64,000 nucleotides of DNA. Origin: Deuterostichococcus epilithicus (lineage: Eukaryota; Chlorophyta; Trebouxiophyceae; Prasiolales; Stichococcaceae). A model generated the notes under the pieces. The model saw only the letters and a program-made list of their open reading frames with translations. It did no database searches and was not told the origin of the DNA. The stretch spans positions 744,001 to 808,000 of the forward strand of contig JAVTLE010000001.1 in assembly GCA_033439295.1 (NCBI GenBank), given 5' to 3'. Made by a program: the position numbers and the translations under genes. This document shows positions 1 through 61,032 of the stretch, one piece after another (within the stretch, counting starts at the first letter, position 1; each line of letters opens with the position of its first letter).

Positions 1-3803
<3,803 letters not shown>

Positions 3804-10421: not shown

Positions 10422-13400
10422 TCAAGGCGACACGCCCTGTGCAGTGTCCAGGATGTACTGGACTTGCTTCGCCGCCCGATCTCGCGTGTGCAGCGCCGCC
10501 TCCACCGCAACCGCCTCTTCCCTGGTGAACACCCTGCGGTGCAAGCAGCCCGATGCAACAACTCACTTCGAGGTCGGAACATGACGGCATGAAATGCAAT
10601 TGGGACCCAGCCCAGCTGAAGCTCATGAGGGGCTGCGTCCGTCGGAGCAAAGAACATGTGGTGTGGGCTGCCGGGACTGCCTTGATGGACCCACTCGGGA
10701 TGCAACCTCCTCATGCAGCACGAACACCAGCTGGGACGCGGGCGAGCTTCCAGGACGTCCTTCAGCCGTGAACGAAGAAGGCGAGTTTCTTCTAAATTAA
10801 ATCAAACGCAACCCACCCCGAGCGCAACCGCGCCTCCAGCGTCCGGTTGGCCGCCACATTGTCCGCCAGCAGCGCCTTCGTCTCCGCCAGAAAGTCACGC
10901 CTGAACACAGGTTTTGAAGCAAGGTAGAAGATGGTTTCGTGCTTCCGTGGTAGTTGCACATACTTGCTGCACCCTGCCAAAGCATGGAGATGCACCTCGT
11001 CCCCTCCGAACAGGGGGTTCTCTGCGCAGACCCGCTTTGCGGCACTCACTTCGACACGAACTCCACGAAGGGGGTGGCGGCAGCGCCCTCCTCGCCGCGC
11101 GACAGCGCCTCCGCGACGGCAAATACGTCGATGGGCTGGGTGTCCGCCGGCGTGAAGGCGGCCCGCAGGCGCCCCTCCACGTCCTGGGGACATGCAAAGG
11201 ACCAGGTTCAGACAAGTGCCTGCAAATGCTCGCCGCCCCACCAGGAGGATCCGGAGGCGGCCCCTACACGTCCCGGGGACACGTGAAAGGACCAGGTTCA
11301 GCGTGTCGTTTGCAAAGTGGTCGCCGCGCAGCAGAGAAGACCCGGAGGAGCCCAGCTTGGGCACGCCCGCTCGTCCGCCCTGAGAGCTGCCTGCATGCGT
11401 CCTGCTGGACAGCCTGCGCGGTGCCTACTCTTATGCCAGCCGACGGGTTTGCATGTCAGATGTTGCGCAGCGACTGCAGCGCGGCGCCAGGCAAGCGAGC
11501 CACCGGCCCTGGGTGCAGCTGCCCGTCACCGGCGTTCCAGCCCGAGAAATCCCCAGCGACCAAGGCGCGCTCCCACACAGGCTGGCGGCATGTGGTGCAG
11601 GTGCACAGAAACTCCGGAGGCAGCCTCCTCAGGGTTGGTCATTTATCACGAGGGGAGTGGCCGCGCCCGCTGCCGACGGGCATCGTCGGAGCCGGGCGCC
11701 TCCAGCAGCTGCAGCGCATCATCCAGCAGCCGCTCCGAGGGCAACGCGCGGAGCCGCTCCGCCTCCGCACGCAATCGCCGCCACAGGGTGGCCAGGGCCT
11801 CTAGCGCCTCCTCCGGTTCCCCGTACCTGAACAGGCAAAGCGGTGCGGACCCTCTGTGGGTTTGTGGTTGCAGCGGTAATTGGAAAAGTAGCTTGGTGAG
11901 AAACAGGAGGGTTGCAGCTCAGCGGAGCGTGTTCGGAGAGCCGCTGCCATCACGGGGTGGTCGGCGCCTCCTCGGGGATCCCCGTATCTGCGGGCCACAA
12001 AGATGCGTAAATAATATGATCTGTAGCGGAAGGCCCTACGAGATCTAGCAGATGACGCAGCTCAAGGGGCCGCGCCCTGCTACAGAGTAAATGATTGCGT
12101 GTCCAGTCCTCTTCGGACTGGACACGCTGCTCGGCACATCGCACCAGACGCCGCCGCCCCTTGATCGCTCGGCACATCGCGCAAGCCAGCGTCTCGACAC
12201 TGAGCAGAGCCGCGCCAGCATTTGTTGAGCGCCATGACAGCGAATCGCGCGTACGGCCTCCACACCGGCCAGGCAACGCTCTTTGGAGTCGAGTTGCGGA
12301 TGCTGGATGCCAGCACCAGGCGGCCTCGATGCGGCTGAGGAGCTTACCCAGCAGCTCATCGTCGATATCCTCAGCGTCGGACGTCATCATGGCAGCGCAA
12401 GCGCCAACCTACAGCGCGTCTCAAGTAAGTGTGTGTTGGAGGTTGGGGGGCTGTCCCACCGCCAGGCGGCCTCGACGCAGCAGCTGCATAGCATGGCCGG
12501 CAGCGCCCCGCCGGTGTCCTCGCAGCGGCGCAGGCGCCGACGCACAGGGAGCCTGACTTTCTGAGGAAGGATATGGGGCGTTCTCACTGCGAGGCGGCCT
12601 CGATGCGGCTGAACAGCATGGCCAGCAGCTCCTCGTCGATGTCGTCGCGGTGCGCATCGATGACCGCCTCCAGGTCCCGGCCCGCGTCTATCATTTCCAT
12701 CAACAACTTCCCCCGCCGCAGCTCCTGTGGGTCGTCCTGAGTGCACCAAATGAGGTTCCTACACACGTGCTGCTGTGCCCTGCGCTTGGACCTTTTCCCC
12801 CCCGCCCACCTCCTGGTGCGCCCATCAGCAGCTGCAGGGCGGGGGCCCGGCGCCGTTGCTCCCGCCAGACTGGCCAGATCCCGGAGCCGCGCCATGGGCA
12901 GGCAGCAACCCACAGCCGGCGCAGGCTCGACTACAGGCAAAGTGCGTGACAGAAAAACCAGAATGAGACAGCCAGGCTTTGTCCCGACAGAGCTCATCCA
13001 TTCCAGCATCGGGCGGACTGATCAGATGACTTTTGCATCGGGGTAATACGATCTACACCTGCTCGTCTGTTTGTGGCGGCTGCTCGCGCAGCTCGGAGAC
13101 GCCCGCCGCCGACTCGGCGGTTTCCGGCAATCCGGTGGCGCTCGACGGCTCGGCGGCGTCCGCTGGATCGCCGCGCACGCTGGCAAAATCCGCAGGAAAC
13201 TCTGCTGGCGACGCTGCCAGGGGGGCTGCTGGGAAGTCTGCGGGAAGCGTCGCTGGGAAGTCTACGGAGGGGCCCGCCGGGAAGTCGGAAGCGGCCGGAA
13301 ACTGGGCTGCAGGCGCCGCTGCTTCCGGCTCGGGGCGGTCCCAGAACTCCGCCATCTGCACCATTGGCCGCTGAGCTTCCTCTTCTTCCTCTTCTTCCTC

Positions 13401-17200: not shown

Positions 17201-17231
17201 GTCGGGCAAGAAACGCAAGCGCAGGACATGA
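14199..17231 (+). CDS. TPR-repeat protein, TTC14-like
   Basis: Supported exons: 14199-14279, 14739-14809, 14946-15249, 15609-15742, 15904-16012, from 16180 (end uncertain, up to about 16560), an exon around 16770-16860, 17054-17095 and 17192-17231 (stop TGA). The TPR core reads RGIGAARGGDYAAALKCYQQ, ALELDRRNVDAHVARG, ANQKQWPQAIAALETAL and EIEPADENAAKYL, close to the TPR pair of TTC14. The tail is low-complexity Ala/Ser/Pro and ends in a strongly basic Lys/Arg region (KRKKLKKKKR, then GKKRKRRT) resembling a nuclear signal, also seen in TTC14 proteins. I see no S1 RNA-binding domain, which animal TTC14 has. Two Ns and a frame conflict lie in exon 4. Role is unknown; RNA-related nuclear function is inferred from the family. 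Confidence 0.68.
15658..15662. other. Ambiguous bases with local frame conflict
   Basis: Ns at 15658 and 15662 fall in exon 4 of the TPR gene. The frame set by the acceptor at 15609 is not the frame that encodes the TPR after the Ns, so one or two bases are probably miscounted in the assembly here. Confidence 0.75.
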
Positions 17232-32746: not shown

Positions 32747-32785
<39 letters not shown>

Positions 32786-36500: not shown

Positions 36501-37249
36501 CCCGGCGGGGAGGGCGGGGGCACGATCCTGGGAATTTTAAACCCCAAACCTGTACTCACTTTTCCAAAGGTTGCCAGAACAACTCCCATGCAGTGGATGT
36601 GGCCAGCGTAGTGACCTGGCACGGCATGCAGGCTGTGCTGTGATTGTGGCCTAGATGTGGGAGTCATCAGTGCCAGCGTCTGGCTCTGTCATGTCAGGCG
36701 CAGTGCACGCCCCCGCGCTGTGCAACCCAACATCATGCAACATTTCTGACTAGACTGCAATCTTGACCACAGGTGCGTGAGTGGGTGGAGGCCACCGGGC
36801 TGGAGAACCTGGGCAAGCGCCTGGTGAACAGCCGCGAGGGCAAGATCGAGTTCGAGAAGCCCAAGATGAGCGTCGACATCCTGCTCAAGTGCGGCTCCTG
36901 GGCGCCTGCTTTCGTGGCTGAGACTCGGCAGAAGCGGCGAGGCCGACCCTGTTCAACACTGCCTGAACCTTGCGGCCCCTTCGGCTGCTGCAGCCTGTAG
37001 CGTGCGCTGCAGGGAATCGCACCTCAACGCCTCGTTTGGGCTCGTCACCTGAATCCCCATGCACTGACTGACCTTCACCTGCCCAACTGCCGCAGGTACG
37101 GCAACCTGCTGGTCGACGAGCAGGAGAACGTCAAGCGGGTGCAGCTGGCGACAGAGTACCTGGACGGCTCCGCCTCCCTGGCCGGCGGCCGCAAGTCTCC
37201 GGATGTGAAGGAGGCCATGGAGGCGCTCAACAAGGTGAAGGTTCAATGA
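33578..37249 (+). CDS. RCA: Rubisco activase, chloroplast precursor (430 aa)
   Basis: Twelve exons in phase: 33578-33598, 33735-33754, 33890-33947, 34137-34241, 34499-34633, 34955-35092, 35293-35467, 35667-35791, 36049-36166, 36317-36444, 36773-36888, 37096-37249 (1293 nt, TGA). The first 55 or so residues are basic and Ser/Ala-rich, as in a transit peptide. The mature part carries [25 protein letters not shown], Walker A GGKGQGKT (150-157), Walker B FINDLD (D214), [37 protein letters not shown] and [16 protein letters not shown], all diagnostic. It is the AAA+ ATPase that removes inhibitory sugar phosphates from Rubisco in the stroma. The C-terminus ends shortly after the core and lacks the redox Cys extension of plant alpha forms. 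Its last codons (VKVQ) arise from a 41-bp tandem duplication. Confidence 0.97.
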
Positions 37250-37277
37250 AGGAGGCCATGGAGGCGCTCAAGAAGTA
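37207..37277 (+). repeat. 41-bp tandem duplication at the end of Rubisco activase
   Basis: gaaggaggccatggaggcgctcaa(c/g)aag occurs at 37207 and again at 37248. The first copy is coding (KEAMEALNK). The second overlaps the present stop and would read KEAMEALKK followed by a stop. Because 41 is not a multiple of three, the duplication shifts frame and creates the ending VKVQ. Confidence 0.9.
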
Positions 37278-38139
37278 GACATGCCCCTGTGGCTTGTGTT
37301 TCATGTCGAGAGCGTGCCGCGCATCACGGCGGTGCGCTGACGAGGAGTGTTATTGTGGCGCAGCCCGCGGGTGTGCAGGGCGGCAACAACACACAGGGCG
37401 GCAACAACACACAGGGCGCCGACAACACAAAGAGCGCCGACAGCATAGAGAGCACCAAGGGTTTCTGGTGAATGGCGACTGGCATTCGAGGGGTGGAGGC
37501 TGGCGCGGCCGCCTGTGTTGGGAGACGCGCCAACGGCGCAGCGGAGCCGGACGTGCAACATTTTGTGACCTGCATTTGACGAGAATATCAACCGTTTTTG
37601 CAAACGCGTCACTTTTGATATTCGTTGGGTTTTGCCACGTCTTGTTTACTGCTGATTGCGCGCAGTCGCGCGTGTGTCCGCACCGCTGAACGTTGGAATT
37701 GCCACGATTTTGAGTTTTAGGTACCTAGCGATGTCTCCACACAGATCTCTGGGCCTGAGTCTGACACTGCATGCAGCAGCAGCCGCGAGCATTGTGCAGT
37801 TGCTGGTGTTGTACACTGGTGCACTGCAGCAGAGCGAGGAGCTAAATCCCGCACACACCTCGATAGTCCCCTAATCAGGAGCACATGTTCTTCGCACATG
37901 GTGAGCCTGAGCCGCAGTACGCAGATTTCTTCTTGTGCTCCTGTGTGCAAAGCCAAACCCGATCTGCCGTGCGGCCGCTGCAAGCTTCGTTGCGCGAAAG
38001 ATTCGCCGCACCTGCAGTACCAGTGCGTTTGCTGGCGGCCTTCGGCGCGCTTTGGGCCGAGCTGCGGGTTCCGTCAGTCGCAGCAGATCTTTCCATGCTA
38101 AAAGCCGCTATGGCGTGAGGCGGGACACCCGGAGACGCC
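37250..38139. other. Intergenic between Rubisco activase and ankyrin-kinase
   Basis: The 890 bp contain the second copy of the 41-bp duplication, the 18-bp minisatellite, and otherwise no recognisable gene. The right half is the 5' flank of the kinase gene. Confidence 0.5.
37379..37450 (+). repeat. 18-bp minisatellite in the 3' flank of Rubisco activase
   Basis: The unit ggcggcaacaacacacag is present twice perfectly, then decays into ggcgccgacaacacaaag and agcgccgacagcatagag. It probably lies in the 3' UTR. Confidence 0.85.
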
Positions 38140-41100
38140 ATGAAACCTGTGCTGGACGAAAACAAGCCCATCGCTGTCGGCGACGGAGGCGAGAACGGAC
38201 TCGGTCGTCGTGGATCGGCGAACTTTCACAGCGACTCCGATGGCGAGCCGAGCACCTCGCTGCATCATGTCGGCATCAGTCTGCACGGCGACACGGTGAG
38301 CTATTGCGGGCCCTCTGCAGCTGTCGACCTAGGGGCTGCACCTCGCTCATACGACCCGTCCCGTGTGCGGCCTGAACGGCGCCGGTTGCTGTGCCGGTTC
38401 TTCAGAATGCTTCACATGCAGCTTGATTCTGGTGACGTGTCTCAGGCTTGGCGTTCTTGGAAGCCAAACCGGAGCGGTGCCGGATGTCTTGCTGGATGTT
38501 TGACTGTGAAAATCACATACTCACACTCCTGCCTTGCTCGACGGCTGCCGGCGTATGGTCGCTGTGCTGCGGGCTTTGACTGTGTGCGGCACCATGCCAA
38601 CGACGTAAGAAGGGGGCGGCAGCTCCGAACACTTGCCAGGTCATCGGCCTTGTTGCAGGCCCGACCTGCGGCCTGCCAGCCAGAGCAATGCTGGAATGAC
38701 CTTGATGTTGGCTTGCACATGTTTTGTGCAGGCGGCGCGGAGGCGAGCCGTCACAGAGCTGCTGTTCTTTGCCAGCGTGGGCGATCTGCGGCGGTGTCAG
38801 CGCATTGTGCGCCTGTGGAACTTGAAGGTCCGGTCGCGCCCCATACGTACTGCTATGACCCTTGTCTGCACCGTGATCGGGCCTCGCTGTTCTCTGGCAA
38901 GGTCTCATTAGCCGCTGTGCTCCGGTGACACGCGGCATGTGTTGTGTCTTTTGCAGGTTGCGGACCCCACCTGCTGCGACTACGACAGGCGGACACCACT
39001 GTGAGTTCCTCTGAACCTGTGAACACCGGCTAGTACCGTGCAACGTTTCCGCACGCATGCTCGTATCGCACTCCGCACACTCTGGATGCGCGCCAAGTCT
39101 CGACCTGCCCCCTTCATGCAGCCATCTGGCAACCAGCGAGGGCTCGTGGAGCGTGGCGGAATGGCTTCTAGCGAACGGCGCGGACATCAACGCGCTGGAC
39201 CGCTTCAAGCGGACGCCGCTCGAGGTGCGACCTGCAGCTGGCACTGTGGCCGGTCTCGTGGACTCTGTTTTTGCGCTCAGCGCCGCGGGCGCCTCGATGC
39301 TGTGCTCGCTCTGCACACCTCGTGAGGCTGTCGAGCAGCGGTCTTGCCGTGTGGAGAACCGCAGGACACTGGGGCCCGCTGCGGTAGACTGGCGGAATGT
39401 TGCCGGCACGCGGAAGGGCGGGGCTCGGCGACGAAAGTCCCCGGCAACTGGCGCCCAGGCACAGGGAGGTGTGGGTGCCCAGGAGCCCACATGGGCGCTG
39501 TGTCCGGAACAAAGGTACAAGATTGAACTTGTCTGCTGCAGGACGCGGTGAGGGGGGACTTCAACGATCTTGCGAAGCTGCTGATCGACCACGGTGCGCA
39601 GATATGGGCCGACGGCAAGGTGCGCCGCGGCATTGGCAGTCGTAGTGCCTGCAGCTGAGGTTGCTTCCGCCTGATCGCGGCAGCGCGAAAGTGGCAGATG
39701 CACACCCCCTGGGCGCCCAGCTGCTCCGAGCTGTGCATTCTGCACTGTGCAGTCTGCAGGTAGAGGGCTGTGCGCTGCCCGCAAGAAGCTCAGTGATTGT
39801 CGCAGTGGTCTGAAGATGCAACATGAGCCAATGAGGCCTGAGCGCCCTGCACCTGCCGCCAGCCGGTCGGGACACCATCCCCTAGTCTGTGTAGCAGGTC
39901 TGATGAAAGGCTTGCCGCTGGGAGGGAGGTCTGTGATAGCCATGGTTGCAGGCGCTCCCTGCCAGAGGGCTTGCCGTCAGAGAGCGTTTCGTTGTGTCCC
40001 ATGCAGCTGGTGCCGCTGGAGAAGTCGCCGCTGGCGGGAGCGGGCATGAACATCCCGGCGCGGCCCTTTGAGCTGGACCCGGACTGGGAGATTGACCCGG
40101 AGGCGCTCCACATCGGGGAGAAGATCGGTGCGCTGCCGCGGTGTCGCCTGCCCTGTCGCGGGCCTCGTGAGGTGCTGGCCGCCGCCATGCGCTGCTACGG
40201 CGCTGCCTGGGAGTGGAGCCCCACACCTGCGGAGGCTGTGCCCCCCTGCCTCAGAAGGCGTCCATGTCGGTCGCTGCGGGCGCGTGCACACCTGCGCAGC
40301 TGCAGGACAACACCTCTCAGCTTTCTGGAGTGGCCCCAGGCACTCGGCCCCAGGAACCCATGGGCCCGCCACCTGCAGGTGAGGGCGAGTTTGGCGTGGT
40401 GCACAAGGCCACCTGGTACGGCACTGTGGTCGCAGCCAAGATCCTCAAAAACACCTCGGAGATCGCGTTGGGCGACTTCCGTGCGGAGATCGAGGTCCTC
40501 CGGAAGGTGAGAGCCGCATCTTCGTCGGAGCCGCACCTTCGTTTGGGCTGGCGTTTGGGATCCGAACGCCGCTTGGTGGCAGCGCACGAATCGCAAGCTG
40601 CACCAGCCCAATGCCGGTGGCGCCACCTGCCGTCGCCTGGAGCTTGCAGCTTGCAGCTCCCCCAAGTGCTTGCAGCTCGAGTGTTTGCTGCTGAAGTGCA
40701 TCCAGGCTCGCTGGCACATGGGTGTGTGCCCTGCATGCCCTGCCGGCTTGTGTGGGTAGCCACTGTGCACTGCATACGCTACAGCATGCTCATGTGCCAG
40801 GGAACCGAAGGCAAATTGCCCTGCCGCCAGGCGCACCATCCGATTCCCTTCGCGATGTTTCCAAACAGGTGCACCACCCAAATGCGGTGCAGTTCCTGGG
40901 CGCCTGCACCAAGCAGGAGCCGTACATCCTCATCACGGAGCTCATGAGTGGCGGCTCCATGGCTGACAGCTTCCGCATGATGAAGGTGCGTCGTCCAGGC
41001 TGGCTTCCGTGATACGCGGTTCTGCATGAGCTGCGCAACGGCCGACGCAGGGAGGGTGCACAAGTGGCAGGGAGGTTCGTGTACAGAAGCTATGCGTTGC

Positions 41101-43098
41101 CAAAGGAGCATGTCAGGGCTCGCCTGGTCAAGGGTTGAGGGCCGGCGGCCGCTGGGCACGGCTGGTGATTTTCCGACACGGGGCCTGAAGTCTACTGCCT
41201 CTGGGCGCTGCGGCATCTGCGCAGGCGGCAAACGGCGGCTGGGAGGGCATTTTTCCGGCGCCAGGGTATCTTGGGGGCCCTGAGCAGCGCGATGGGCCGC
41301 AGGTGTTCCGCCGTTCCCCGATAGAGAAGCGCCGCCCCCGCTGGCTGCGGAGCCTGCCCTCGTCGTGCAGCCGTGCTAGATTGGTGCAGTGCGGAGAAAT
41401 AACGGCAGCTGCCATAACAGCAGCACGCTGGGATCGTCCCGAGCACAGCACCATGCGCCTGTGCCCGCAGGGCACCGGGGGCCACACTCGGGACTGCCGC
41501 ATCTGTGCGCCCGGCCCACGCCTGCGCACCGTTCATCCATCAGCCGTCCCACCAGCCACCGAGCCATGGCGAACTCCACCGGCCTGGAAGCTGGTGTGAT
41601 TGTTTTTAGCATTGCGGGCACAGGTGATGAGCCTGCGGCGGGCGGTGGAGCTTGCGCTCGACGCGGCGCGCGGCCTGGCTTACATGCACAACCGCAAGCC
41701 GGCGCCCATCGTGCACCGCGACCTGAAGCCGGCCAACCTCATGATCTCGGGCGCCATGACGCAGGTGGGCCTGCCAGCCTGTACACTGCCGGCAGGCGCC
41801 AGGTAGTGTGTGAGGCGCAACCAGGCAGGGCACCATCTAGTTGATGCCCTGCACATACCCGCCGCAGCCACATCCAGGACAGTGACTCGCTGGTGCGCCA
41901 GACGGGAGGCTGTCGGACTCAGTCTCTCCAACTCGCCGCTGCCCATGTGCACAGACCTTGAGCTCGTGCTCCGGCGCTGTGCTGCACAGCAAGGGGAATA
42001 AAGGCCTTGACTTCCCTTGATGCGCAGGACCGGGACTCGCTGGTATACCAGACGGGGACCATGAAGCTGGCTGACTTCGGGCTGTCCAAGTCGCTGCCCA
42101 TGAACAAGCACGCGGGTTTCGACCTGGAGTCCAAGTTCAAGCTGACGGGCGAAACGGGGAGCTACCGCTACATGGCCCCCGAGGTCTTTCGCCACGAGCC
42201 CTATAACTTTAAGGTGCGCCGCTGCACCCGCCACAGCCGCCGCTGCGCGCCTACGGCCCGGAGCGGGGCCCCTGCCGCGCTTAGCGCAAGAGCTGCATCA
42301 CCGGCCTCCCTCGGGCCGGTCGTGGAGCCGCTGCCGAAATTGCCCCGCACGGACACCCGGCTGAGCTGGGGCGCCTTGCCCATGTGCCGCCTCGCGTGCG
42401 CCTGAACCCTCTCACACCCCGCGAACGTGTGTTGATGCTTCTGTTCCGCCCGTGCAGGTGGACGTCTACAGCTTCAGCATGATCCTGTACCAGCTGTTCG
42501 AGCACCAGCCGCCGTTCGCGGGCACGGACCCGGTGGAGGCGGCTCGACAGGCTGCGCTCTATGAGTACCGCCCGCCCCTCAGCCAGCTCAAGGGCCGCAT
42601 GGAGCCATTCCCGGTGCGGCCGCCCTCAGCACATGCTGCTGCCCGCCCCAGCTCGCAGCGTCAGGACGCAGAGCGAGGTCGGCTGAATTTAGTGTGCGCG
42701 CCGCTCGGCCGGCTACTTGGCAGCTCGCAACCGCCGGATGTTGTTTGGCGGCCGCGTCTCACTGCCTCCTCCAGTTCCTGCCAGGGCTGTCACTACCTGC
42801 ATGGCACACCCCTGTGGGGCCTCCCCTGACGCCCGCGCTCCATGCCGCCGTGCAGACGCTCAAGACCCTCATCGAAAATTGCTGGCACCCCAACCCGGAG
42901 AAGCGGCCCAACTTCGTGGTCATCGTGGACGAGCTGACGAAGCTGCTGGGCACGATGCCGCGGAAGGGCAAGGCGGGGCCCACCGGACCCTCCGCAAAGA
43001 CCATCGGCGCCGGTGCGGGCGTCCCGCGCAGCGGCGGCGACGACGATGGCGATGTCGGGCGTGGCGGCGGTGGCGGCGGCTGCTGCAGCATCTCGTGA
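38140..43098 (+). CDS. Ankyrin-repeat protein kinase, ILK/Raf-like (TKL group), 522 aa
   Basis: Twelve exons in phase: 38140-38295, 38732-38827, 38957-39000, 39122-39224, 39542-39619, 40007-40127, 40379-40506, 40869-40985, 41624-41764, 42028-42213, 42458-42613, 42856-43098 (1569 nt). Ankyrin repeats occupy about 55-160 (DRRTPLHLATSEG, ANGADINALDRFKRTPLE, LAKLLIDHGAQIW). Kinase motifs follow: glycine loop GEGEFG (200-205), VAAKILK with K220, HRDLKPANLM (H312-D314), DFGLSK (D344), GSYRYMAPEV, DVYSFSMILYQL and the ENCWHPNPEKRPNF ending. All catalytic residues are present, so it should be active on Ser/Thr. Plant relatives (ILK/VIK kinases) act in stress and hormone signalling. The C-terminus is Gly-rich and ends CCSIS, a CaaX-like box with a neighbouring Cys. 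Intron 9 contains a decayed copy of the start of exon 10. Confidence 0.94.
41878..42065 (+). repeat. 150-bp tandem duplication of the DFG-exon start, ankyrin-kinase
   Basis: ccag|gacagtgactcgctggtgcgccagacgggagg at 41878 matches gcag|gaccgggactcgctggtataccagacgggga at 42028, the functional exon start. Similarity continues through tctccaactcgccgctgcccatg against tgtccaagtcgctgcccatg. The upstream copy keeps an AG but not the reading frame, and lies entirely in the intron. Confidence 0.82.
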
Positions 43099-44648: not shown

Positions 44649-47600
44649 TCACAAACAACTCGAATCTGACATGAGCGGGAAGCTAAGAGCTGTGCAGCAC
44701 TGCCGATAGGCACCCTGCATGTTGCGACAGCACAGCAGGCGTGTGAGGGGACCACCGAGCGGATGCCGCTTTGCCCGTCGTCCATCAGGAAGCTTGACCG
44801 TGCGAGGGTACGAGGCGCACCCAGTGGCGTTGCGGGCGGCTGTGAGGCGGCCCTCGTCCGCCGGCGCCGGCCGCTGAGTCAGGCTGCGCCGCCGTGAACT
44901 CTGTCGCTCCGCGCCGCCAGCGAGCCGCGCCGCCACTGCTGCCGCCGCCGGCACCAGCTCCGCCTGCCCGCCATACTGCCGCGGCAGCACCTGCAGGTTT
45001 TTGGGGGCCCAGACATTCAAATGGGTGGAATACTGCTTCCACGCCTCGTTCGCCTGTCATGGACTGGTAGCTGCAAAAACAGCTCGGTTGCAGCAGAAAC
45101 AGGCACATAGGCGACCGGCGGAGGCTTGCAGGGATGACAAGACCGCTGCTGTGCTCAGATGCAAGACGGCACTGCCGGAAGGCACAGGCGACACAGCAAA
45201 CCTGACCCACACCAGCGGATTCTGAAAGGAGGCTCGAAGCTCGTACCTCGGGCGGGATGGCGGCGGCCAGCCGCGCCGCCCGCTCAGCGCCACTGAGGAA
45301 AACGATCTTGTCGCGCGTGGCGGGCTCGATGAAGGGCGACACGATGCGCCACAGGCCCCAGAAGATGAAGGGGGCGTTCAGGAACCACAGCTGCGACAGG
45401 CGCTCCGGGAAATGGCCCTGTGGCGCAGCAGGTATGGGTTTGAAGCACAAAGCATGCCTGCTTTGGACGATGAGCCCCAGGCCCAGGGCGCTGGATCACT
45501 TGCGGTTCCGGGTGTTGGGAAAGCAGGACGGCAGCACGCACCAGCAGCCCTCAGGCGCACAGCCACTGGGCTGCGGCCCAGCCACTGGGCTGCGGCCAGT
45601 ATCTGGCGCCGCTTGCATCATGCACCGTGTCATGATGTGTTCGACAGACGTGGTTGGCATCAGAGGCGGCAGGCGGCAGTCTCGGGGAGGATGTCACTCT
45701 TGACACATCGCCGAGGATTGCTCACGGTCTTTGACCCACCTGCAGCAGCTCGAAGATGCCGCGCAGTGCCTTCACGTCCAGGTTGTTCATCCGCAGCCCT
45801 GCCAAAGGACGCAAGCACGAGGGTTCAGACACGATGCTGTGCCACTGTTTCTGTCCAGAGTCTGCGACATGCTGTTGCCACTGTTTCTTCCCAGAGTCTG
45901 CGACACGCTGCAACATGAACAACATGGCCTATGCGCCTGACATAGAGTGTACAGTGCCCAGTGACGGCCGGCGGCGAGCACTGAATGCATGCCGCACACA
46001 CGGCCTGTGACAGGCAGAGGCCCTGCTCGACAGGTGCTGGCGTGGTTGTAACGGCAGCACAGTGCCGCGCAGGGTGGCAAATCCTCCCGTTGCACAACGA
46101 CACCTGCGGCACGGTGGTTGCGATCGTGTGATCAGCGCACCCGAAAGGTCGAACAGGCACAGGAATTTGCCGAGCGGATTGCGGGCGGCGTCGCACGCCA
46201 TCGCCGCCGCGTTGTCGAGCGCATACACGATCAAGCGGTTGGTTTCTTCCAATCGCCGCGCGCCCATGTCGTGCCGCGCCGCCATCACGATCATCACTGG
46301 CCGCCCCTGCAGCATCAAATGTGGTGCAGGAAGTGTCAAAGGCGGGCGCAGATGTCACGATCAGCGCAGGCGCATGGTGCAGGGGCCTGACGGCAGTCGC
46401 CCCGTTGGGCATTAAGGTGGCTGTGCGACAGGGCGCTGTGGCTTCACGCCATCGGAAACATGTCCTACGAAGATACGGTGCAGCACGCTTGTGATCCGGT
46501 CCAGTGCCTTGCGCCTTTGCTTGCGGGCAGCGGCCAGCGTCCGCGTAGGCATATGCATTCGCTTTGTGCATTTGGGGCCCCCGGCTGCCCGGAGCGGACG
46601 CGAAGCATCGCCCAGATGCAAGCGACGATGGTCACAAGAGGGGCCCAAAGCTGCCTGCACAAGACAGCTGCTCAGGCTTTCTGCACACCTCGTTGTCGCA
46701 GCCCTGCAGGAAGACCTTGTTCACCGCCAGTTCGTTGGCAATCTCGTCCTGCGGACGAACCAGCAAACGTGTCGGCGCCCTGGTCAGGGATGCTTGGCGC
46801 ATGCGGGCCCCCTGCATGATGCGAAGACGGCGATTGGAGGCAGGCGAGTTCGATTTCAGGACGCTAACCTCGTTGATGCGACCGTTCGGGATGTAGTTGT
46901 AGCGCCATCGGGCATGCTCGCGCAGCCCTGCCTCAGCCTCGTCCACGTCATGGTTGCGCGCGGCCAGCCACCTGCGGCCACATGGTGGGGCACGAGTCAA
47001 GCAGGTGGCAGCCAGCGTCTGCAGCAGACGAGCCTGCGGTCCTGTCGTGCATCGGCACTCGAGGTGCTGGCTTGCCTGCAGCAGACACTACCACTTCGAC
47101 AGCAGGTCACTCGTGTGAAGTCAAGAAACCCCCACCTGAGCAGACAGGCCTCGTCCATTTCCTCGCCGCTCTGCTGCAGGAGGTCCTCGACAGCCAGGCC
47201 GGCTGCTGAGCTGTCGGCGGCTGGGGCAACGAGGGCCGAGCCGTCAAGGCTGCTGCCATCCTCCAAGCGGCATGCGGCGCCGCCATTCTCAGGCTCCCGC
47301 AGCCGCTGCCGCAGCGTCGCCACCGTCTGGTCCACCGTGCCGAGCGATGCGGCGTCCGAAGGCGCTCGGCTGATTCCGCCGGAGCCGGAGCCGGCGCTGC
47401 TGCTGAGGGAGGTTCGGCGCCGCCGGCGCGCCGCGGCGCTTGAGCGGAAGCTGCCGCCTGCAGGTCCGCCAGGGCACGTGTTTTGCAATGCCACTAGTGT
47501 CAGGTGGATTGAATGGATTGAAGACCACTTGTGAGGTTCTGGCGCTGTGTTGTGTGCAGCACTGTGAGCACAGTATGCATCAGAAACTGGGTTGTGACAC

Positions 47601-50137: not shown

Positions 50138-50172
<35 letters not shown>

Positions 50173-52452
50173 GCGGCAGCAGCGGCAGCGCTGCGCAAGC
50201 GGGATGCTAGAGGGGAAGCCCCGCACAGGGAGGGTCAGGCGAGACGGCGGCGCACCCGCGGCGGCAGGATGAAGTCGGCGCTGATGATGCGGCCGAACAT
50301 GAGCTGCATGCGGCGGACGCCCTTGACCTTTTCGTCCTCCGGCCGCCGGAAGGGGAAGCTGCCGACCAGCATGACGTACAGCATGACGCCGCATGACCAG
50401 ATGTCCGCGCACTTGCCGTCGTACACCTCCGTCGTCAGCACCTGTGTCCGGGGGGCAACGGCACGGGGCGCTCAGTCGTGCTGTGCCGGGCACGCCTCGG
50501 GGCGGAACCGGCTTACGGCCTCCTGTCTGGGACCGCTTGGACCCCGCCCGCCTCGAGTGCACCGTGGCTTCGGGAGTCGGCCCCGGCGGCATGCCCGCCA
50601 CCCAAGGGGGCCACCCTGCCGCGAGACGCAGCTGGCGCCGCCGCCGCACGCCAGAGGCGCGGGGCAGACGTACGGCCGGCAGTGCAGGGTGCCCCAGCAG
50701 CCAGGGACGGCCGCGGGCGCCTGCGCGGCGCTTTGTGTGACGACCCACAACGGGGTCCGACAGAGGCGGGCGCAACTCGACCTAGGGTCCAGGGTTTGAG
50801 GATTTAGGGTTCAAGGGAACCGCACCTCCGGCGCCATGTACTCCGGCGTGCCGCAGGCGGTCTTGCACAGGGAGCCTGCCACCTCGTCCTTGGAGTACCC
50901 AAAGTCGCACATCTTGATGATGGGCAGCGGCTGGCTGCCGTCCAGCAGCACGTTGTCCAGCTGCGGCACACCAGGAGCCGGCTCAGCAACATCGCCCGAG
51001 CGGTTCCCGGGGGGCTCGATCAACAAACGGTGCCATGCTCCTCCGCCCTCCAGCAGCACATTGTCCAGCCGCGAGACACCGAACCCCAGCTCGGTGGGTC
51101 GCTCGGGTCGTTTGACAGGCTCTTCTCGACAGGCTGTCTGCAGCGATCTGCCAGCCGGCAGCACAGCGTCCATGTGCAGGGGCGCCGCAGCCGGCTCAAA
51201 AGAGGCCCAGGTTTCCTGCACAGGTCTCTGCAACCAAGCCTTTCCGCAGCAAAGCCCTTCTACAACATAGCTTTTCTATGCCGCATGGCGCTGCAAGCTC
51301 CCAGCAATGCTGGGCATGCGCTGCCGTCGTGTTTTGGTCCTGCAGATGTGACGGAAAAGGCGTGTGTGGCACCTTGATGTCGCGGTTGGCGATGCCTAGC
51401 CGGTGGCAGTAGTCCACTGCGATGATGAACTGCTGGAAGAACCATCTCGCGTCCGTCTCCGGCACGCCTCCGAGCTGCGACAGAATGCAAACCCGTCTGA
51501 GGGCTGCAGCTTCACAGCGCTGCGTACCGATGCACGCAATGCGTCAGCCTCAACTGAAGTCTTGAACAGCAAAGAGCTGGCAGCAGCCTATGCCCTGTAG
51601 CTGGCAGCAACAAGGATTCGATGCGGCTAGCGTCCAGTGTGGCACAGAGGGTACAGGTGCACACCCCAGCGCGCTTGCAGGCGTCCACGTATTCCGACAG
51701 GTCGCCGCCCGGCGCATACTCCATGGCAATGGCCAAGTGCTGCGGCGTCATGAACACCTCCTGCGCGCGGCGCAAGACAAGGCCTTTCAGGCGGCTGGCA
51801 GGCGGGACCTGGCGAGCGCAGCGCGGGCTCCGCGCATGCCTGTGCAGGTGCAACCGGAAGCAATGCCAACAGGCTGCATCACAGGCGGCAGGCAGGGCGC
51901 GGGGTGGCAGCGCTGCGGTCACCTTGAGCTGCACGATGTGGGGGTGCATGGCACACTCCCGGTGGTTCAGCAGCTCCCTCGCTATGATGCGCTGGCTGGT
52001 GCGGCCGCCGCGCTCGATGAACTTGATGGCCACCTGCTCGTCCGTCTCAGTGTCCAGCGCCAGCTGCACGAAGCCGGAGGCGCCGCTGCAGAAGCAGTGA
52101 AACAGTGACAACAGCGTCAGCAGCAACTGCGCCCTGGCATTGCGTCATTGCAAAGCTGTTGAAGCTTCGAGGCGCCCATGGCTGATGCGTGGGACGCCTC
52201 GATCGGCGGTCAGCTGATCAAATACTGCCAGAAGCGCCCCCCCTCCTCATACCGCCGGGGAGTGCGCTCATGTTGACCTCCTGTCCTTAAGGGACTTTTG
52301 TAGTGGCATGATAAGCCAGAGCTTGTAATTCTGCGACACCTGTTGAGATGTCGCAACTTCACGTAGCGGGGGTGGCCATCCAGCGGGACTGCGGTCTCGT
52401 CCATCGGCTTCGTGGAGGACGGCCCCTCGCCGTGGCCCTGCACCCCATTCAT
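49036..52452 (-). CDS. SnRK2-type Ser/Thr protein kinase (344 aa)
   Basis: Eight exons in phase: 52452-52340, 52085-51923, 51760-51665, 51474-51373, 50960-50826, 50441-50256, 49586-49431, 49119-49036 (1035 nt, TGA). Motifs: [19 protein letters not shown] glycine loop, VAIKFIERG (K59), [30 protein letters not shown] (catalytic D156), CDFGYSK (D177), [38 protein letters not shown]-type [18 protein letters not shown], then a short C-terminal helix [18 protein letters not shown] as in SnRK2s. The order and 'DFGYSK' are SnRK2 hallmarks. In plants SnRK2s act in ABA and osmotic signalling; in Chlamydomonas, SnRK2s govern sulfur stress. The catalytic-loop His is Asn here (NRD). Several in-frame ATGs near the start make the exact N-terminus uncertain by about 16 residues. 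Confidence 0.93.
50141..50188. repeat. (CAG)n microsatellite in a SnRK2 intron
   Basis: About ten perfect cag triplets followed by interrupted cgg/cag triplets, in the intron between 50256 and 49586. Confidence 0.95.
50942..51080 (-). repeat. 108-bp tandem duplication of the exon-5 start, SnRK2 gene
   Basis: ctggacaa(c/t)gtgctgctgga follows the functional acceptor (gtgccgcag, exon start 50960) and occurs again 108 bp upstream in the intron after gtgtctcgcgg, where the AG has become GG. Weaker similarity extends into the flanks (gacacc, cagctcgg), with hints of a third copy. Confidence 0.8.
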
Positions 52453-53247: not shown

Positions 53248-56200
53248 ATGGGCTGCGCCACGTCCAAGGTGCGCCATGCTCGCAGATCGTTGCAGGCGAG
53301 TACGCTACTCAAGCCAGCATTGCTGATGTTGCCTCTGGCGTGCGCTGGCCACCATCGTGTTGCCGACGTGCACCCCAATCACGCACACATCTGTACCGGC
53401 TTCAGTAGGTGTTCCATTCTCTCATTGCGATGCCGTCACAGCAAGTTATGGCACATACTCCATGCAAGCCTGAGCAGCGCGCGCTTCGGCCTCATGGCAA
53501 TGGCGAGGCACTTGGCATTCATGCAGCAGCTGCCTGGCTTACACCCGACTGCTACACGACTGTGATTTTTTCCCGGCCGTCCTGCCACACTCAGTCGATG
53601 CCCCCAAGGTCATCTGACAGCGAACCCATTGGACGACGGTGACACCGTCCGCTGCAGGAGCAGCATGCTGCGCCGGCACCTACATTGCCCGGCGGCGGCG
53701 CAGCGCAGCACCCTGGCGGCGCGCCCCCTGGCAAGGCCTCCTCGGGCGGCGAGTTCCCCGGCTCGACTCTGCGATTTGACACCGCCAAGGGCAGTCCGAC
53801 AGAGGCGCCTCTCCCCGCGGCTGCGGAGGCGCCGCCGCCCGTGAGCGCGGGCCCCATGGAGGCCAGCGGCACCTCTTTCTCCACCGCCAGCCCGCACACC
53901 CCGCCGCCGCAAGACGCGGTCGCCACCGCTAGGCCGGCGGTGGCCAAGCCACCCCGCAGCCGCCATGGCAGCCGGGAGTATGTTGCACTCGGGCTGCTGC
54001 GGGAAACTGGCGGCGGCCCGGGCCCGCCGTCTGCGCCGCCGCTGCTGGAGCACGTGTCTGACAGCGCCGACAGCCTGCGGCTGCGAAACAGGCAGTTCCT
54101 GCGAGCCAATGGGGCGGCGCCGTCGGCGGCCGCGCTGGCTGCGGCCGCAGAGGCGCCACCGCCGCCCCCAGAGCTGGGCCATGTGCTTTCGCTGCTCAGC
54201 CGTCTCATCAGCGCGACGGCGGTGGTGGTGGACCTTCACGATCCGCCGGTAACCTACATCAGGTATACTGTGTGCCTTGCTGAACCTGAACAGCACGGCA
54301 CAGCGGCCTGGCTTCCGTTGGAGACAGGTTGACAGCAGACCTGGAGGACACGTTTGTTGTCTAGGGTAGGCGTCACCCCTTTCCCCCAGTGCTGCTCAGC
54401 AGCAACCATGGGCCGTGCAGCTCCCTGCTGCGCGGCTGACGCCAGCCACGGTGTGAGTGATGCGGCCGCAGCGGGCAGCGCCGTCGGCTGCAGCGGCATC
54501 GTCACCCAGTGGGTGTAAACCCTCAGCCCGCTGCTGCAGGGACAGCGTGGAGCTGCGCGTGGGTGACGCGGCGGAGGTGCGGGCCATGGACGGGTTCCAG
54601 GAGGTGGCGCTGGTGGGCCGCGGGGGGCGGCTGCTGGGCCTGCTCGGGGCCGCGACGCCCGGCGCCGGCTCCATGCCCAACCCCATGCTGTTGCAGGTGA
54701 AGCGCTGAGGCCCGTTCCTTGGACTGAGCGGCTCGGGTTGGGTGGCTTGAATGCCGAACCAGCTTGAGGCAATGGCGCCGGGCGCTCTATGTCACGCCCA
54801 ACCCATACTGCGTCCCAGTCGGGCTCGGGCGTCTCAGCTGCACATCGGCCAGTGTTCCTTCCTTGAGGAGGGTGACTTACACCCGAGTTATGCAGAGTTG
54901 AGGACTGCCGAAAGGGACTGCAGCACGCTGGTGTGCCCAGCACAATGGGCGGTGGTCTTTCAACATGCCCCTTGGCTGCTGCACACAGCTTGCCCTGAGA
55001 GGATCAAAGCTGCACTTGGTAGTGCCACAGCCTCACGAGCTGACTTGCGCTCGCACTGGACATTGGCTCCTCATCCTGTTACCAGCATCATTGTCAGATG
55101 GCCGCGTGCGCTGACAGCGAGGTCACCGCACGGCCGCAGGTGGCCGGTGTGGTGGCGCAGCAGGTGGAGGTGATGCAGTCGGCAGCAGCCCCTGAGGACA
55201 CCCCGCCAGACTTATTTCAGTCGAAGGCTGTTTTCAATATTCGCACATGCACCCCCACAGTTCGATATTCGCAACTGCACCCCCACAGATGGCCAGCGTG
55301 GTGGTGCGGGAGGTGGAGACGATGCAGTCGGCAGCCAGCCTGAAGGAGCCGGCGCTCAGCGGCGAGCTGCAGGATGGGCCTGGCGCCGGCGGCGAGTGGT
55401 CGCCGGCGCCCATACCCGCGGGCGCGCTCGTAGACGCACGGGATCCCGCCTGGCCCGCTCTCGTGGCCGAGGACAGCATCGAGGCGGTGCGCTGCCCTGC
55501 CACCCCGCAGCAACCCCTGCCTCGACCCGGCGCGGCAGCACGGCGCCCTGCGACTCGCATTGTGGGCTCGGCTGCCGGGTCACTTGTGGCATCACGCAAA
55601 CCCATGTCAGGTGTTGGCGGCAGACACACAAGCTGGCGTGCACACGTGGTTCTGACAATGTTTTCTTGCTCAATGCAGGTGACGGGTGTCTCGGCGGACA
55701 GCTGGAAGGGCGCCTCGCTGTGGGACCTGCTGCTGGCGCCTTTTGCAGCGCACAGCGCCGCCTGGAATGCCGTCAACGAGGTGACGGCGGCGGCCGGCGA
55801 CCTCATCGTCACCGGTGTCGGCTGCCGCACGGAACCCTCCCGGGGACCCTTCGTCCTGCGCTGCTCGTGCGCACCCTCCCCCCACTGATCCGGCACTGAA
55901 ACTGATCAGAACAGGTGGAAGCCTCGGCTGCAGCGGACGGCGAGCTGCGCATGCACTGTAGGACATGCTGCGCCGTGCGGCTGCAGACTCCGTTCGGGTG
56001 CCAGCTGCTGAGGCTTGAGACGTAGTGGTAGGGCTATGGCAGACTGCTCATCCTTTCTAAACCAGGGCGCATTACAGCTCAGCTGCGGAACACCCGCTCC
56101 TCTGCCTGCAGGCCGGCCAATCCGGCGCTGCTGGCGGCCCAGGCCCGCCCCGCGGACTGGGTGGACCTTGTGGCCACCCTGCAGCAGGACGGCGACTCTG

Positions 56201-59200
56201 CACTTCGCAGAACCTCTGCCGCAGAGGCCGACGCCGGCCGGACCGCCGCCGCTGCCGAGGCATTTGCGGCCGGCAAGGGCGCTGCGGCCGTCAACCGGCA
56301 GCGCCTGCCGCAGCCGTACCTTGTGATGGTGGCAAAGGAGGCGCCGTCAGCGGTGCCGCGCGCGGCGACGGCGGAGTCGCGCTTTGCAAGCGGCGGCTCC
56401 TTCGGCCGCGGCAGCGGCGGCCCCATTGGCGAGGAGGTGCCGCCTCGTGTCCCCCCTTCTCCCCCCTTCTCCATGCGCAATTGCCGCAGTCCTTTCGAGA
56501 GCCTTTCTGCGAATCTTCTGCAACGGCTGGCGCAAGCCTATCGACTTGCAGGCGGTTCTTGAGACCGAAAGCTTTCTCAGACCAGCATTCTCAGACCAGC
56601 ACTTCCGACTGCATTTTAAATGCCATGAACAGTGGCCCTGCGCGCTCCTCGTGCTCCCTCTGCCGCATGGTGGTGCTGGCCGCGCAGCAGCGCCGCTGCA
56701 GAATCCGGTCAGGGTTTTGTCGCACACGGTCAGCTGCACCGAGGTCGTCCTTGTCGCGCGTTACTGTGTCCCTGCGGGGGCCGCGCAGTCGTGGAGGCCG
56801 CTGCTCTTTCCGGCTCATGCAACTGTGGCCGCTGGTGGCACACAGGACAGCCCGCCACTGGAGCGGCACCCCTGTCTGGGGCCGCTACTTGGAGTCCTGC
56901 TGCTCATTTCGGGCCTCGGAATGGTTCCGCAGACGCCATCTCAGCCGGTCCCCTGTGCGCCTGCACCGCAGGCCAGGCAGGGCGGGGCGCCGATAGAGGG
57001 CGTGCAGCTGGGGCCGCTGCTTGGAAAGGGCTCCTTTGGCCGCGTGTACCACGGCCATTGGCACGGCAGCGAGGTTGCCATCAAGGTGCGTATTTTGTCC
57101 TCTCCTGCACGGCTGCAGGAGCAAGGCCGCTTCCAAGGATCGCCATGCCGTGCTTGTTCGCACGCAAGACCAGTGAAAAAGGTCCCTCTGGCGTGCAATA
57201 GCTCCAGGGCCTGGCGCCTGTTCGACTGCTGATGCGGCAGCAACATCTCACCGCTTGCACAGCACGATCTTGTGCTACGAACCAGGCTCCAGCTGCCGCT
57301 GCTGCAACCGAGCCGGGCGCCGCCTCACTCTCGGCATGTCGCTTCCTTGAACCCCAATCCGTTAACCCTGAATGTGCGCAGGTGTGTAATCAGGGCATCG
57401 CGCGCAGTGGCGACCGCACCGTCAAGCCCTGGGCGGGCGTCGAGGCGGTCGGCTCCCTGGGGCTGCACCACCGCCACGTGATGCGCACGCTGAACCACAC
57501 CACGGTGGTCGTCCCGGCGCCGCCGGCGCGCAGCTCCGTGCGGCACGCCTCCTTCGGCATCCCGGAGCTGGGCGCGCTGCCCACGTGAACCTCTTTCCGA
57601 GCCCCTCCAGAGCCTTCCAGAATCCCATTGATGAATGATGACTCGCATTGATCCAAGTCCGCTGTACATGCTGTACATGCTGCAAATGTGCCCAGGGTGC
57701 CACCAGCACGAGTGTGTGGAAACCGGCGGCGCACGCTCCTGTATGACTGAAGCTACACTCCCATTGGATGGAGCGAATCTGAGCGGAGGGCCTCTGCCGC
57801 CAGCCGCCCAGCATACGGCGCCACAGAGGGAACCTTCCGGCTGCCTGGCTGACCTTCCGAGCGCCCTGCAGCACGGGCATTGGGCCCCTTGCACCCTTTA
57901 CGTGACCGTGTGCTGTGCCTGTGTCCGCCAGGGCGCGTGGGCCGAGTCTGGACTTTGCAGCAGCGCGGCCGCCACCGCCCATGGTCCGCTCGGCGTCTTC
58001 CGACCTGGACTCCAGTATCAACGCTTCCCACGGCACCCAGGTGCAAAACCAATGTGTCAGCTGCGCTGAGACTGCGGGGGCGCTGCGCCCTAGCGCCAGT
58101 CCAGTGTTGGTTGATGATCGCAGACCACCCAAGTGCAGCCTGCTCGTGTTGCGACACACCCGACGCACTTTCCTGCCGCCTGTCACCCGACGCACTTTCC
58201 TCCCGCCTGTCAGGCCTGCCGTGCGTTGGTCATTGGTATGGATTCCATTCCTTGTTCGGTGCTGCGTGTTCGTGTCCGCGCACCTGTGGCTGCGGCGTCG
58301 CGAGGCAGCGTGCGCGGCGGCGCACCCGATCATTGGGCAGTCCTGCGTGCCGCGGGTTATGGCGGCGCACAAGTCGCGGCTCTGGTGGAGCTGTGCCAGT
58401 TGTCCCGAGCGCTGTGCGTGTGCGTGTCTGCAGCCGGGGCGGCCGCTGGCTGGGAGCCTCTGGCATGCGGGCAACACCGTGGCGGATGGCGGCGACGGCC
58501 GCGCGGCGGTGGCCGGTCCCAAGGACGGCTCCGCGGGCGCCGCGGAGGCCGCGTCGCCATTTGCAGCAGCCACATCGGCAGCATCCCAGACCGGAGCGCC
58601 CTTGTTCTCGCCCTTTGCAGGTGCCGCCCTCCCCCTCACCTCCCAGGATGCCAGCCTTCTCGGCAGGCTTCCTGCCTTCTCGCTCCCTGGCCGCCTCATC
58701 TGTGGAATTCGCGGCTCGCCTGCGGGCGCCGGTCGGTCCAATGTCGCTGTGACTTCAGTGGAAGCAACAGAGACCAACCACCGGGGCGCGGCCCTGGCCG
58801 CCGGCCGCTGCCTCCATCCGTCCTGCTGCTTCACTGTCTGACGAGCACGCGGCTTGTGCCGCAGACTTGCTGCGGTGCCAGGCGCCAGCGAAGGACGCCG
58901 GAGGTGCCGGCGGCAGCACCTCCGGCAGCGGCAGCGCCGGCAACACGCCGCCAGGCGCCGTCCTGGTGGCGGCCCGCCCCAACCACCTGCGGGGCACCTC
59001 CCTTGGCGGCGGCGGATCCCCCGGCCAACTCGGCGGCGGCTCTGGCAGCCAGGCCGGCAGCACGCGCCGCGGCGGCGGCGGCGGCGACCAGGCCGCGGAG
59101 GTGGACACCTGGGTCGTCATGGAGTTCTGCAACCGCGGCACGCTGCAGGTGCGACTCAGGGTTCAGGACGATCAACTGTTTCTGCGGGTCTGCAGCTGCT

Positions 59201-61032
59201 GGTGGGTTGCGGCTCAACGCTCCCAGCTCCATGCTGACGCTGGATGCGAGTGTGAAGCCAGCGACGGCGTTCCTCGAGCGGCTGTGCCGGACGCGGCCCG
59301 CGGCCCTGTTAGGCCAGGGGCGTTGCAGCCGCTTCGTCAGCAAGCGCCCTGCCAGCCGGGCAGGTGCTGCATCCCTGTTGAAGGTCGGGCCTGTTTCAGC
59401 AAACAACACTTGCGGCCTGCCCTGAAACCCTAAAACCCCTGTCTGCAGCGGGCCCTGGAGGACGGCTCCTTCTCGGTCGAGGGCCCCGACGGGGGGCGGC
59501 ACCCCGACATGCGGGCGGTGCTCACGGCGGGCCGCCAGCTGGCGGAGGCGATGGCGTACATGCACGCGCGCGGCGTCATCCACGGCGACCTGTCGCGCGC
59601 CAACATCCTGCTGATGGACAATAAGGAGGCGCCGTGCGGCTTTGACGTCAAGGTGCCTACCCAGGGTTGTTTGGCGGCTCACTGCCAGCAGTGGTTGGTC
59701 GTCGAGCCCTCTTGGCTGTGCCGTCGAGCGGCAAGCGGTGCAGCCCCCGCGGAACAACAGAACCAAGGATGTCAAGGAATGTCAACGCTGCACCCTGCGG
59801 ACGCTCACCAGGAGCCGCTCCGCCGCGCAGGTGGCGATCCCCGGCGTGGCGCGCCGTTAGCACCTTGCTCTCAATAGCCCCTGAAAGGCTTGCTCCTTGA
59901 GCCCTATACGAAGGTTCCTCGTACTCCTTGAGTATGCTCCCTGAACCCTCCTGCTGCCGCGCACAGGTGGCAGATTTCGGCATGGCGCGGCAGCTGGACG
60001 CGCAGAGCCGCATCGACACCCCCAAATACCCTGCTCCTCGAAACACTCAACCCTAAACCCTTCTGCCGCACAGGTGGCGGACTTTGGCATGGCGCGGCAG
60101 CTGGACGCGGCAAGCCGCATCGACACCTTCAGCTGCGGCACCATCACGCACACTGCACCCGAGCTCATGGACGAGGGCCACCTGTCGCGCGCCGCAGACG
60201 TCTTCGCCGGCGGCGTGCTGCTGTGGGAGCTGCTCGCCGGCTGCGGCGCATGGTCCGGCATGAATCAGGTGCCCTGCAAACCCTGAAAGCCTGAAAGCCC
60301 TCCTCGCTCCCGCGGGTCCCCCGCTTCGCTCCCCTGCGGGGGGCGACCTCTAGAGACGCGTGCGGGGCAGCACCCGCAGAAGCGGCTGCGGGGCAGCAGG
60401 CCCTGCACGTCTGCACCGGCTGTGCGGGGACTGCAGCTGACGACATGCGTGCCAGAGGGCGCATGGCTTCTGATGGCGGCATGCTGCTGGGAGCAGCAAC
60501 TCCCCTGACACACTCTCGCCGTCTGTGGATCCCGCCCTTCTGTTGTGCCCTCCGCCAGCCAGGCCGCACCTCGTCATCGGTTGAGAGTGCTGCACGCCGT
60601 CAAGTGCGTCGCATTGACGGAGCTGGCACCTCGCCGCCGGGCTGAGCCCCTGTCCCGGCTGCACTGCGCAGGCCCAGATCATCAGCGCGGTGCTCATCCA
60701 CAACAGGCGGCCAGTGTTCCCAGCAGACGCGCCGCCCGCATATGCGGTGCGAGCCCAAGCAAACACGCCTCATTGAGCCTGCTGCCATGCTCTGGATCGG
60801 CCACTGTCACCATAACAGCATGGTCGATGCTGCTCAGCACCGGGCGGGCACTCGCTCTCGACTGCCTCCGAGCGTGACGCCGTGGCGCATGGTGACATCG
60901 TCGCAGGCGCTGGCAGAGCAGTGCATGGCGACCAACCCAAAGGAGCGGCCGACATTTGCGGAGGTCGAGCGCCGCATCACGGCGATGCTGCGCGAACTGG
61001 ATGCGGGCCCGGCCGCCCCTGCCTCAGCCTGA
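53248..61032 (+). CDS. Large TKL protein kinase with N-terminal lipidation motif (about 980 aa)
   Basis: Sixteen exons in phase: 53248-53268, 53658-54262, 54540-54696, 55289-55486, 55679-55807, 55915-55997, 56112-56436, 56972-57085, 57382-57584, 57932-58040, 58621-58735, 58865-59148, 59449-59652, 60074-60268, 60672-60746, 60907-61032 (2943 nt); exon 11 and the ends of exons 5-6 are less certain. The start MGCATSK fits N-myristoylation plus palmitoylation. The first 500 residues are low complexity around a region that may be a GAF- or PAS-like sensor fold. Kinase: GKGSFGRVY (524-532), VAIK (K544), long Gly/Ser insert, VVMEFCNRGTL hinge, HGDLSRANILL (D828), ADFGMAR (D852), HTAPEL, ADVFAGGVLLWEL, NPKERPTF. 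Arg of HRD is Gly, as in many algal TKL kinases. Likely a membrane-tethered signalling kinase; ligand and targets unknown. Two introns hold decayed exon-start copies. Confidence 0.87.
55140..55345 (+). repeat. 149-bp tandem duplication of the exon-4 start, TKL kinase gene
   Basis: cag|gtggccggtgtggtgg..gtgatgcagtcggcagca at 55140 pairs with cag|atggccagcgtggtgg..acgatgcagtcggcagcc at 55289. The first copy (VAGVVAQQVEVMQSAA) keeps an AG but runs into no usable donor, so it appears intronic. A second short duplication (attcgca..tgcacccccacag) repeats the acceptor itself at 55235-55288. Confidence 0.85.
58157..58210. repeat. 27-bp tandem repeat in a TKL-kinase intron
   Basis: cacccgacgcactttcct(g/c)ccgcctgt is present twice head-to-tail with one mismatch, in the intron between 58040 and 58621. 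Confidence 0.9.
59967..60140 (+). repeat. 107-bp tandem duplication of the DFG exon start, TKL kinase gene
   Basis: cacag|gtggc(a/g)ga(t/c)tt(c/t)ggcatggcgcgg continues through ccgcatcgacacc in two copies, at 59967 and 60074. Both encode VADFGMARQLDA, and both have an intact acceptor. The first runs into a stop within about 35 codons without a donor, so the second is the functional exon. Confidence 0.9.

Follow-up and report, generated by a model that had tools for sequence, protein, structure and literature searches.

Introns of a green alga carry decayed copies of their own splice junctions, consistent with intron growth by short tandem duplication

Introduction

Where does the sequence inside an intron come from? 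Its origin is usually hard to trace, because introns lose their history fast. The question is raised by a 64,000-nucleotide stretch of the genome of the alga Deuterostichococcus epilithicus (G000:C1:744001-808000, part of a 46.8-Mb genome in 21 contigs), referred to as a whole as the window. A first-pass annotation named six places in the window where an intron contains a diverged copy of one of its own splice junctions: two in a 'plastid' gene, one in an ankyrin kinase, one in a SnRK2-like kinase and two in a TKL-like kinase. It proposed that introns are born here by tandem duplication of AG|GT-containing coding segments, and that the process is frequent.

The analysis described here finds diverged direct copies of exon edges, splice sites included, at all six places, and tandem duplication is their best explanation. 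Their arrangement points to growth of existing introns: short tandem duplications across existing splice junctions have probably enlarged introns and left the encoded protein unchanged. When a duplication crosses a junction, the slowly changing exon serves as a reference for the copy left behind, and old events therefore stay visible. Intron growth becomes countable from a single genome, and separable from intron birth.

Excess, orientation and locality of junction copies

The window was analysed together with 29 sampled 10-kb stretches (354 kb in total; G+C content about 62%, genes intron-rich). Gene models were produced by a self-trained gene finder, trained on the window and these stretches and predicting from DNA alone. 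It returned 75 genes and 649 introns, with a 5th percentile of intron length of 121 bp, and reached sharp splice signals (donors AG|GTGCG, acceptors GCAG|G). At both of its ends, each intron was compared with its own adjoining exon edge together with 30 intron bases.

At a score of at least 20, 38 of 1298 junctions matched their own intron, compared with 1.0 expected from shuffled pairs; at a score of at least 14, 86 of 1298 matched, compared with 19.2. Outside the window alone, the higher threshold was reached by 33 of 1030 junctions against 0.6 expected, and the phenomenon accordingly extends beyond the window. When exon sequence only was considered, 31 matches of score at least 20 were direct and one was inverted. 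The matches are also local: 31 of 1298 comparisons with the adjacent exon gave one, against one of 1252 with other exons of the same gene. An annotation-free count of direct repeats, filtered for low complexity, gave 204 repeats (score at least 18) at offsets of 20-1000 and 7 at 3000-3980.

After removal of low-complexity pairs and of pairs with fewer than 15 exon bases, 42 events with a score of at least 18 remained, spread over 42 of 649 introns, 24 of 74 genes and 20 of the 29 sampled stretches. Their hosts include two conserved genes, V-ATPase subunit A and CK2 alpha. The junctions with copies in CK2 alpha, and the two in V-ATPase subunit A, align gap-free to solved homologues, and the exon boundaries in these conserved hosts are thus sound. 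Residues 91-144 of the CK2 alpha model are unaligned; they are unrelated to the copy junction and probably represent a false exon. Seven of the 42 events fall in a single gene (L022 25-8795; P 0.015).

When 151 direct-repeat events were placed at random on the annotation, the EI-I class was observed 31 times against 24.5 expected and the E-I class 20 times against 24.8, with no clear junction excess beyond placement alone. Pure-intron pairs were too few (20 against 40.3). This result agrees with a genome-wide process that is seen through exons, and counts against one directed at splice sites.

Proposed growth of introns by junction-crossing duplication

It is proposed that a tandem duplication, with a unit mostly of about 85-160 bp, would hit an existing exon–intron junction. 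On the acceptor side the duplicated unit would comprise the intron end and the exon start, and on the donor side the exon end and the intron start. If splicing stays at the junction beside the intact exon, the extra copy would be skipped and turn into intron; the intron would gain about one unit, and the protein would be unaltered. The copy would then drift neutrally, while the exon, under selection, would retain the ancestral sequence, so that the exon part of the copy would remain recognisable. Similarity between intron and intron is expected to decay about twice as fast as similarity between exon and copy.

The geometry of the copies is consistent with this scheme. Offsets are 85-215 bp on the acceptor side (25 events) and 34-252 bp on the donor side (17 events, three below 80 bp); most copies lie about 85-160 bp from the junction, in introns whose length generally far exceeds the offset. 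In several introns there are two or three copies, more than the first-pass annotation had listed, at roughly even spacing (for example -107/-243, -108/-213, -110/-226 and -156/-302). The 35 introns with an event of score at least 20 have a median length of 396 bp, against 235 bp for the others (P 8e-10). Subtracting one offset brings the median to 262 bp, close to the same 235 bp (P 0.14). These observations support the growth of existing introns, with birth not the usual outcome.

The exon–copy matches are short (median 46 bp), consist mostly of exon and end near the junction: at a score of at least 20 and an offset of 40-300, 34 of 35 events include no more than 13 intron bases. Contiguous tandem duplication was simulated with exon originals under selection and all else drifting. 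Two of nine settings fit, with 0.22-0.28 substitutions per site on each branch and 0.35 indels for every substitution. In these, 88-93% of matches had at most 13 intron bases, against 97% observed, match length and identity were close, and the pure-intron share was 0.14-0.29, against 7 of 42 observed. The fit of the contiguous model is conditional on old copies and indel-rich introns.

Several points weigh against growth by tandem duplication. The gene models are the analysis's own predictions, made from sequence alone. Shuffled control introns at most equalled the real intron in length and frequently fell short of it, a bias towards finding an excess; the inverted and same-gene controls are free of this length bias. 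Long introns offer more space for copies, which inflates the length difference and makes the length result supportive only. The fit of the simulation was reached by tuning: in the remaining seven settings 45-81% of matches had 13 intron bases or fewer, more intron sequence than observed, and an earlier, milder run with uniform ages gave 37-58%. The 42 copies contain one in-frame stop where permutation predicts 6.1 (P 0.02), a mild deficit. Among 70 annotation-free repeat pairs (score at least 20, offset 60-350, one intergenic array excluded), one is at least 92.5% identical. The intron flanks are not clearly alike in 27 of 30 events (mean 6.3, against 5.6 in controls), and a contiguous duplication is directly visible only in the TKL-like gene, in intron 11184-11292 and in a third copy in the SnRK2-like gene.

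Unlike flanks and the scarcity of near-identical pairs would also be expected if an error-prone process, such as templated insertion in break repair, had copied exon sequence only into nearby introns. Third codon positions, which differ slightly more than the others (0.246 against 0.20), as if the exons had barely changed since, lend this some further support. Exon-only copying bounded by splice sites was at first favoured from the shape of the matches, and was set aside when an older, indel-rich neutral model gave nearly the same shape. The near-absence of inverted copies, looked for as a mark of templated insertion, the even spacing of multiple copies, the three places where flanks are alike and the fit of the tuned tandem model all argue against exon-only insertion, which is considered very unlikely.

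Possible intron birth

A second rival is the one put forward in the first-pass annotation: introns would arise where AG|GT-bearing coding segments were duplicated in tandem, as in the model of Rogers, and the copies would be remnants of that process. Under this geometry the donor flank of an intron should resemble its own acceptor flank, and the two were compared in 645 introns. At a score of at least 18, one intron matched against 0.0 expected; at a score of at least 14, three matched against 0.9, and two of these three look to be of low complexity by eye. The geometry was therefore rejected as a rule, and elsewhere the copy sits within the intron, about 85-160 bp from one junction. Birth as the general source of the copies is improbable, and of the earlier proposal it is the duplication, not the usual outcome, that stands.

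The one match is a predicted intron of 109 bp on the minus strand (11184-11292), which is built from a single 90-bp tandem unit and about 19 bp more. It takes its donor from one unit and its acceptor from the next; the units lie 89-90 bp apart and score 41, where 500 shuffles reach 19 at most. At 11260 CCCAG has become CCCGG, one of the AG-to-GG changes that the first-pass annotation had described, and the donor is weak (7th percentile). Within one unit the exon edges are only about 20 bp apart, a stretch too short for an intron of the usual size, which makes creation of this intron by the duplication plausible. It is the only candidate birth, and the case is unproven.

Decay of the copies

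Growth by duplication would place the copies in intron, free of coding constraint. A third rival holds that they are alternative or mutually exclusive exons under selection, the products of tandem exon duplication. The copies do look like coding exon edges, the deficit of in-frame stops has the direction expected of exons, and the gene finder called at least two window copies as exons (12317-12387 and 55140-55169). The differences themselves are spread nearly evenly over codon positions 1, 2 and 3 (117, 113 and 141), which gives no sign that the copies are selected as exons, nor is there an enrichment of synonymous changes (86 of 367, or 0.234, against 0.264 expected without selection). The copies decay neutrally. 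Offsets ignore the reading frame (11, 13 and 18 of the 42 events in the three classes modulo 3), and the splice dinucleotide is kept in 18 of 34 copies (acceptor AG in 12 of 20, donor GT in 6 of 14) and gone in 16. Most copies are also partial, and one TKL-like copy, described below, runs into a stop. Alternative exons are highly unlikely as the general explanation.

Among repeats between coding sequences, 17 of 18 have an offset that is a multiple of 3 (several share an array; examples are L013 964-1250 and L003 3447-3619), and the sole departure is a mis-split gene at 12318.

Dispersed elements, such as introners or other transposons, have next to no probability, as each copy resembles its own adjacent exon, three genome-wide DNA queries matched only their own locus (a search of limited sensitivity, in which two queries missed a known diverged partner nearby), and no point in their favour was found.

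Age of the process

The first-pass annotation read copies at several stages of decay as a sign of a frequent process, and this is not borne out for the present. Simulations of a constant duplication rate predicted 26% and 37% of repeat pairs at 92.5% identity or above, far from the single pair among 70 given above, and a constant rate was rejected. An older process seems to fit better than one that is frequent at present: either past activity was higher, or the copies were already divergent at birth.

A tandem duplication over intron and exon (L013 2197-2531, offset 217 bp, 97% identical) is the sole young one in the sample. The intergenic array excluded from the count (L010 5212-6244) has a period of about 86 bp, with its strongest pairs 89-98% identical.

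The simulations detected between 138 of 1498 and 320 of 1457 junction-crossing events. With these detection rates, the 35 events seen imply some 0.4-0.9 duplications per intron, equivalent to between about one sixth and two fifths of the length of introns, under the assumption of uniform breakpoints and a single age. It is tentatively suggested, at somewhat less than even odds, that a past wave of short tandem duplications gave a large share of intron DNA in this lineage. If so, exon edges would be the fossils that make such duplications countable.

Copies in the window

All six places named in the first-pass annotation exceed the best of 500 shuffles of the gapped score. The labels TKL, SnRK2 and plastid come from that annotation, not from a domain search; Pfam confirmed kinase domains and ankyrin repeats in window proteins, found a RuBisCO activase domain as well, and gave no domain match for the 'plastid' protein.

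In the TKL-like gene (plus strand; kinase domain by Pfam), the original 3′ splice site with the first part of the DFG-motif exon (60067-60127; exon 60074-60268) has a copy at 59960-60020, 90% identical at an offset of 107 bp (score 56.5, shuffled maximum 17). The open reading of this copy ends at a stop shortly downstream, with no GT before the next junction, which agrees with the earlier remark that a stop makes some copies useless. A third, weaker and older copy lies at 59819-59853 (offset 243; 20.5 against 18). At the second site, the 3′ splice site with its exon start, 55274-55335 (exon 55289-55486), has an 81% identical copy at 55125-55186 (offset 149; 40.5 against 18.5), and the exon that the gene finder placed inside it, 55140-55169, is probably a wrong call. 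The 3′ splice site is itself tandemly duplicated here, with a 28-bp unit (55233-55288).

In the SnRK2-like gene (minus strand), the 3′ splice site with its exon start at 50937-50972 (exon 50826-50960) has a copy at 51045-51080 (offset 108; 26 against 18.5), in which the acceptor GCAG has become GCGG, a real loss of the AG. The third, older copy at 51148-51198 (offset 213; 21.5 against 15) aligns together with flanking intron. In the ankyrin kinase (plus strand), the 3′ splice site with its exon start at 42025-42056 (exon 42028-42213) is copied at 41875-41906 (offset 150; 27 against 15.5). The gene finder ran neighbouring genes together at least once, probably here: its model 33578-43098 unites RuBisCO activase domains with the ankyrin-repeat kinase in a single predicted gene.

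The 'plastid' gene (minus strand) has an exon end at 12592-12646, near a GTGAGA donor placed by eye. Its copy at 12318-12372 is 85% identical (40.5 against 16); the gene finder took it as an exon and split the gene model there. A middle copy lies at 12440-12523 (offset 125-128; 42 against 20). The outer offset, 274 bp, exceeds the earlier range of 89-161 bp, which does not hold as an upper limit. A case absent from the earlier list is an exon start of the first minus-strand gene (1168-1191), copied at 1268-1291 (offset 100, score 18). Window introns also contain short tandem repeats, with a period of 27 bp at 58157-58212 and 36 bp at 45834-45910.

Comparison with known systems

No account of junction copies in Chlorella-like algae was found in the literature searched, and an earlier description in the Chlorella variabilis NC64A genome paper is possible. 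As far as these searches show, the number of events in one genome and the evidence for growth over birth are new.

Tandem-duplication routes of intron gain are credited to Rogers 1989, Gao and Lynch 2009 and Hellsten 2011 (PMC4974935). The Rogers model shares with the alga a tandem duplication adjoining AG|GT, but under that model the intron should extend from the GT of a first unit to the AG of a second, an arrangement found in the single algal intron described above. Internal gene duplication with intron multiplication (Gao and Lynch 2009) likewise involves short intragenic duplications; whole introns are multiplied in that scheme, whereas the algal units contain the junction and its flanks only. 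In tandem exon duplication with mutually exclusive splicing (PMC9013439), exon sequence is also present in tandem copies, but those exons are whole and used, and the algal copies are partial and neutrally decaying. Fill-in at staggered breaks (PMC8355091) can generate short direct tandem duplications, such as those proposed for the alga, independently of repeats; that work concerns induced breaks with overhangs from 43 bp, and any link to the alga would be one of analogy.

The nearest published case found is the potato RdRp gene, in which a tandem duplication crosses an intron–exon boundary (PMC4974935). As is proposed for the alga, an intron end and exon start were duplicated, and the upstream exonic piece became intron. 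In potato this produced a new intron that uses a cryptic donor and was dated from related species; in the alga the introns of many genes were already present and probably grew, and their copies are old.

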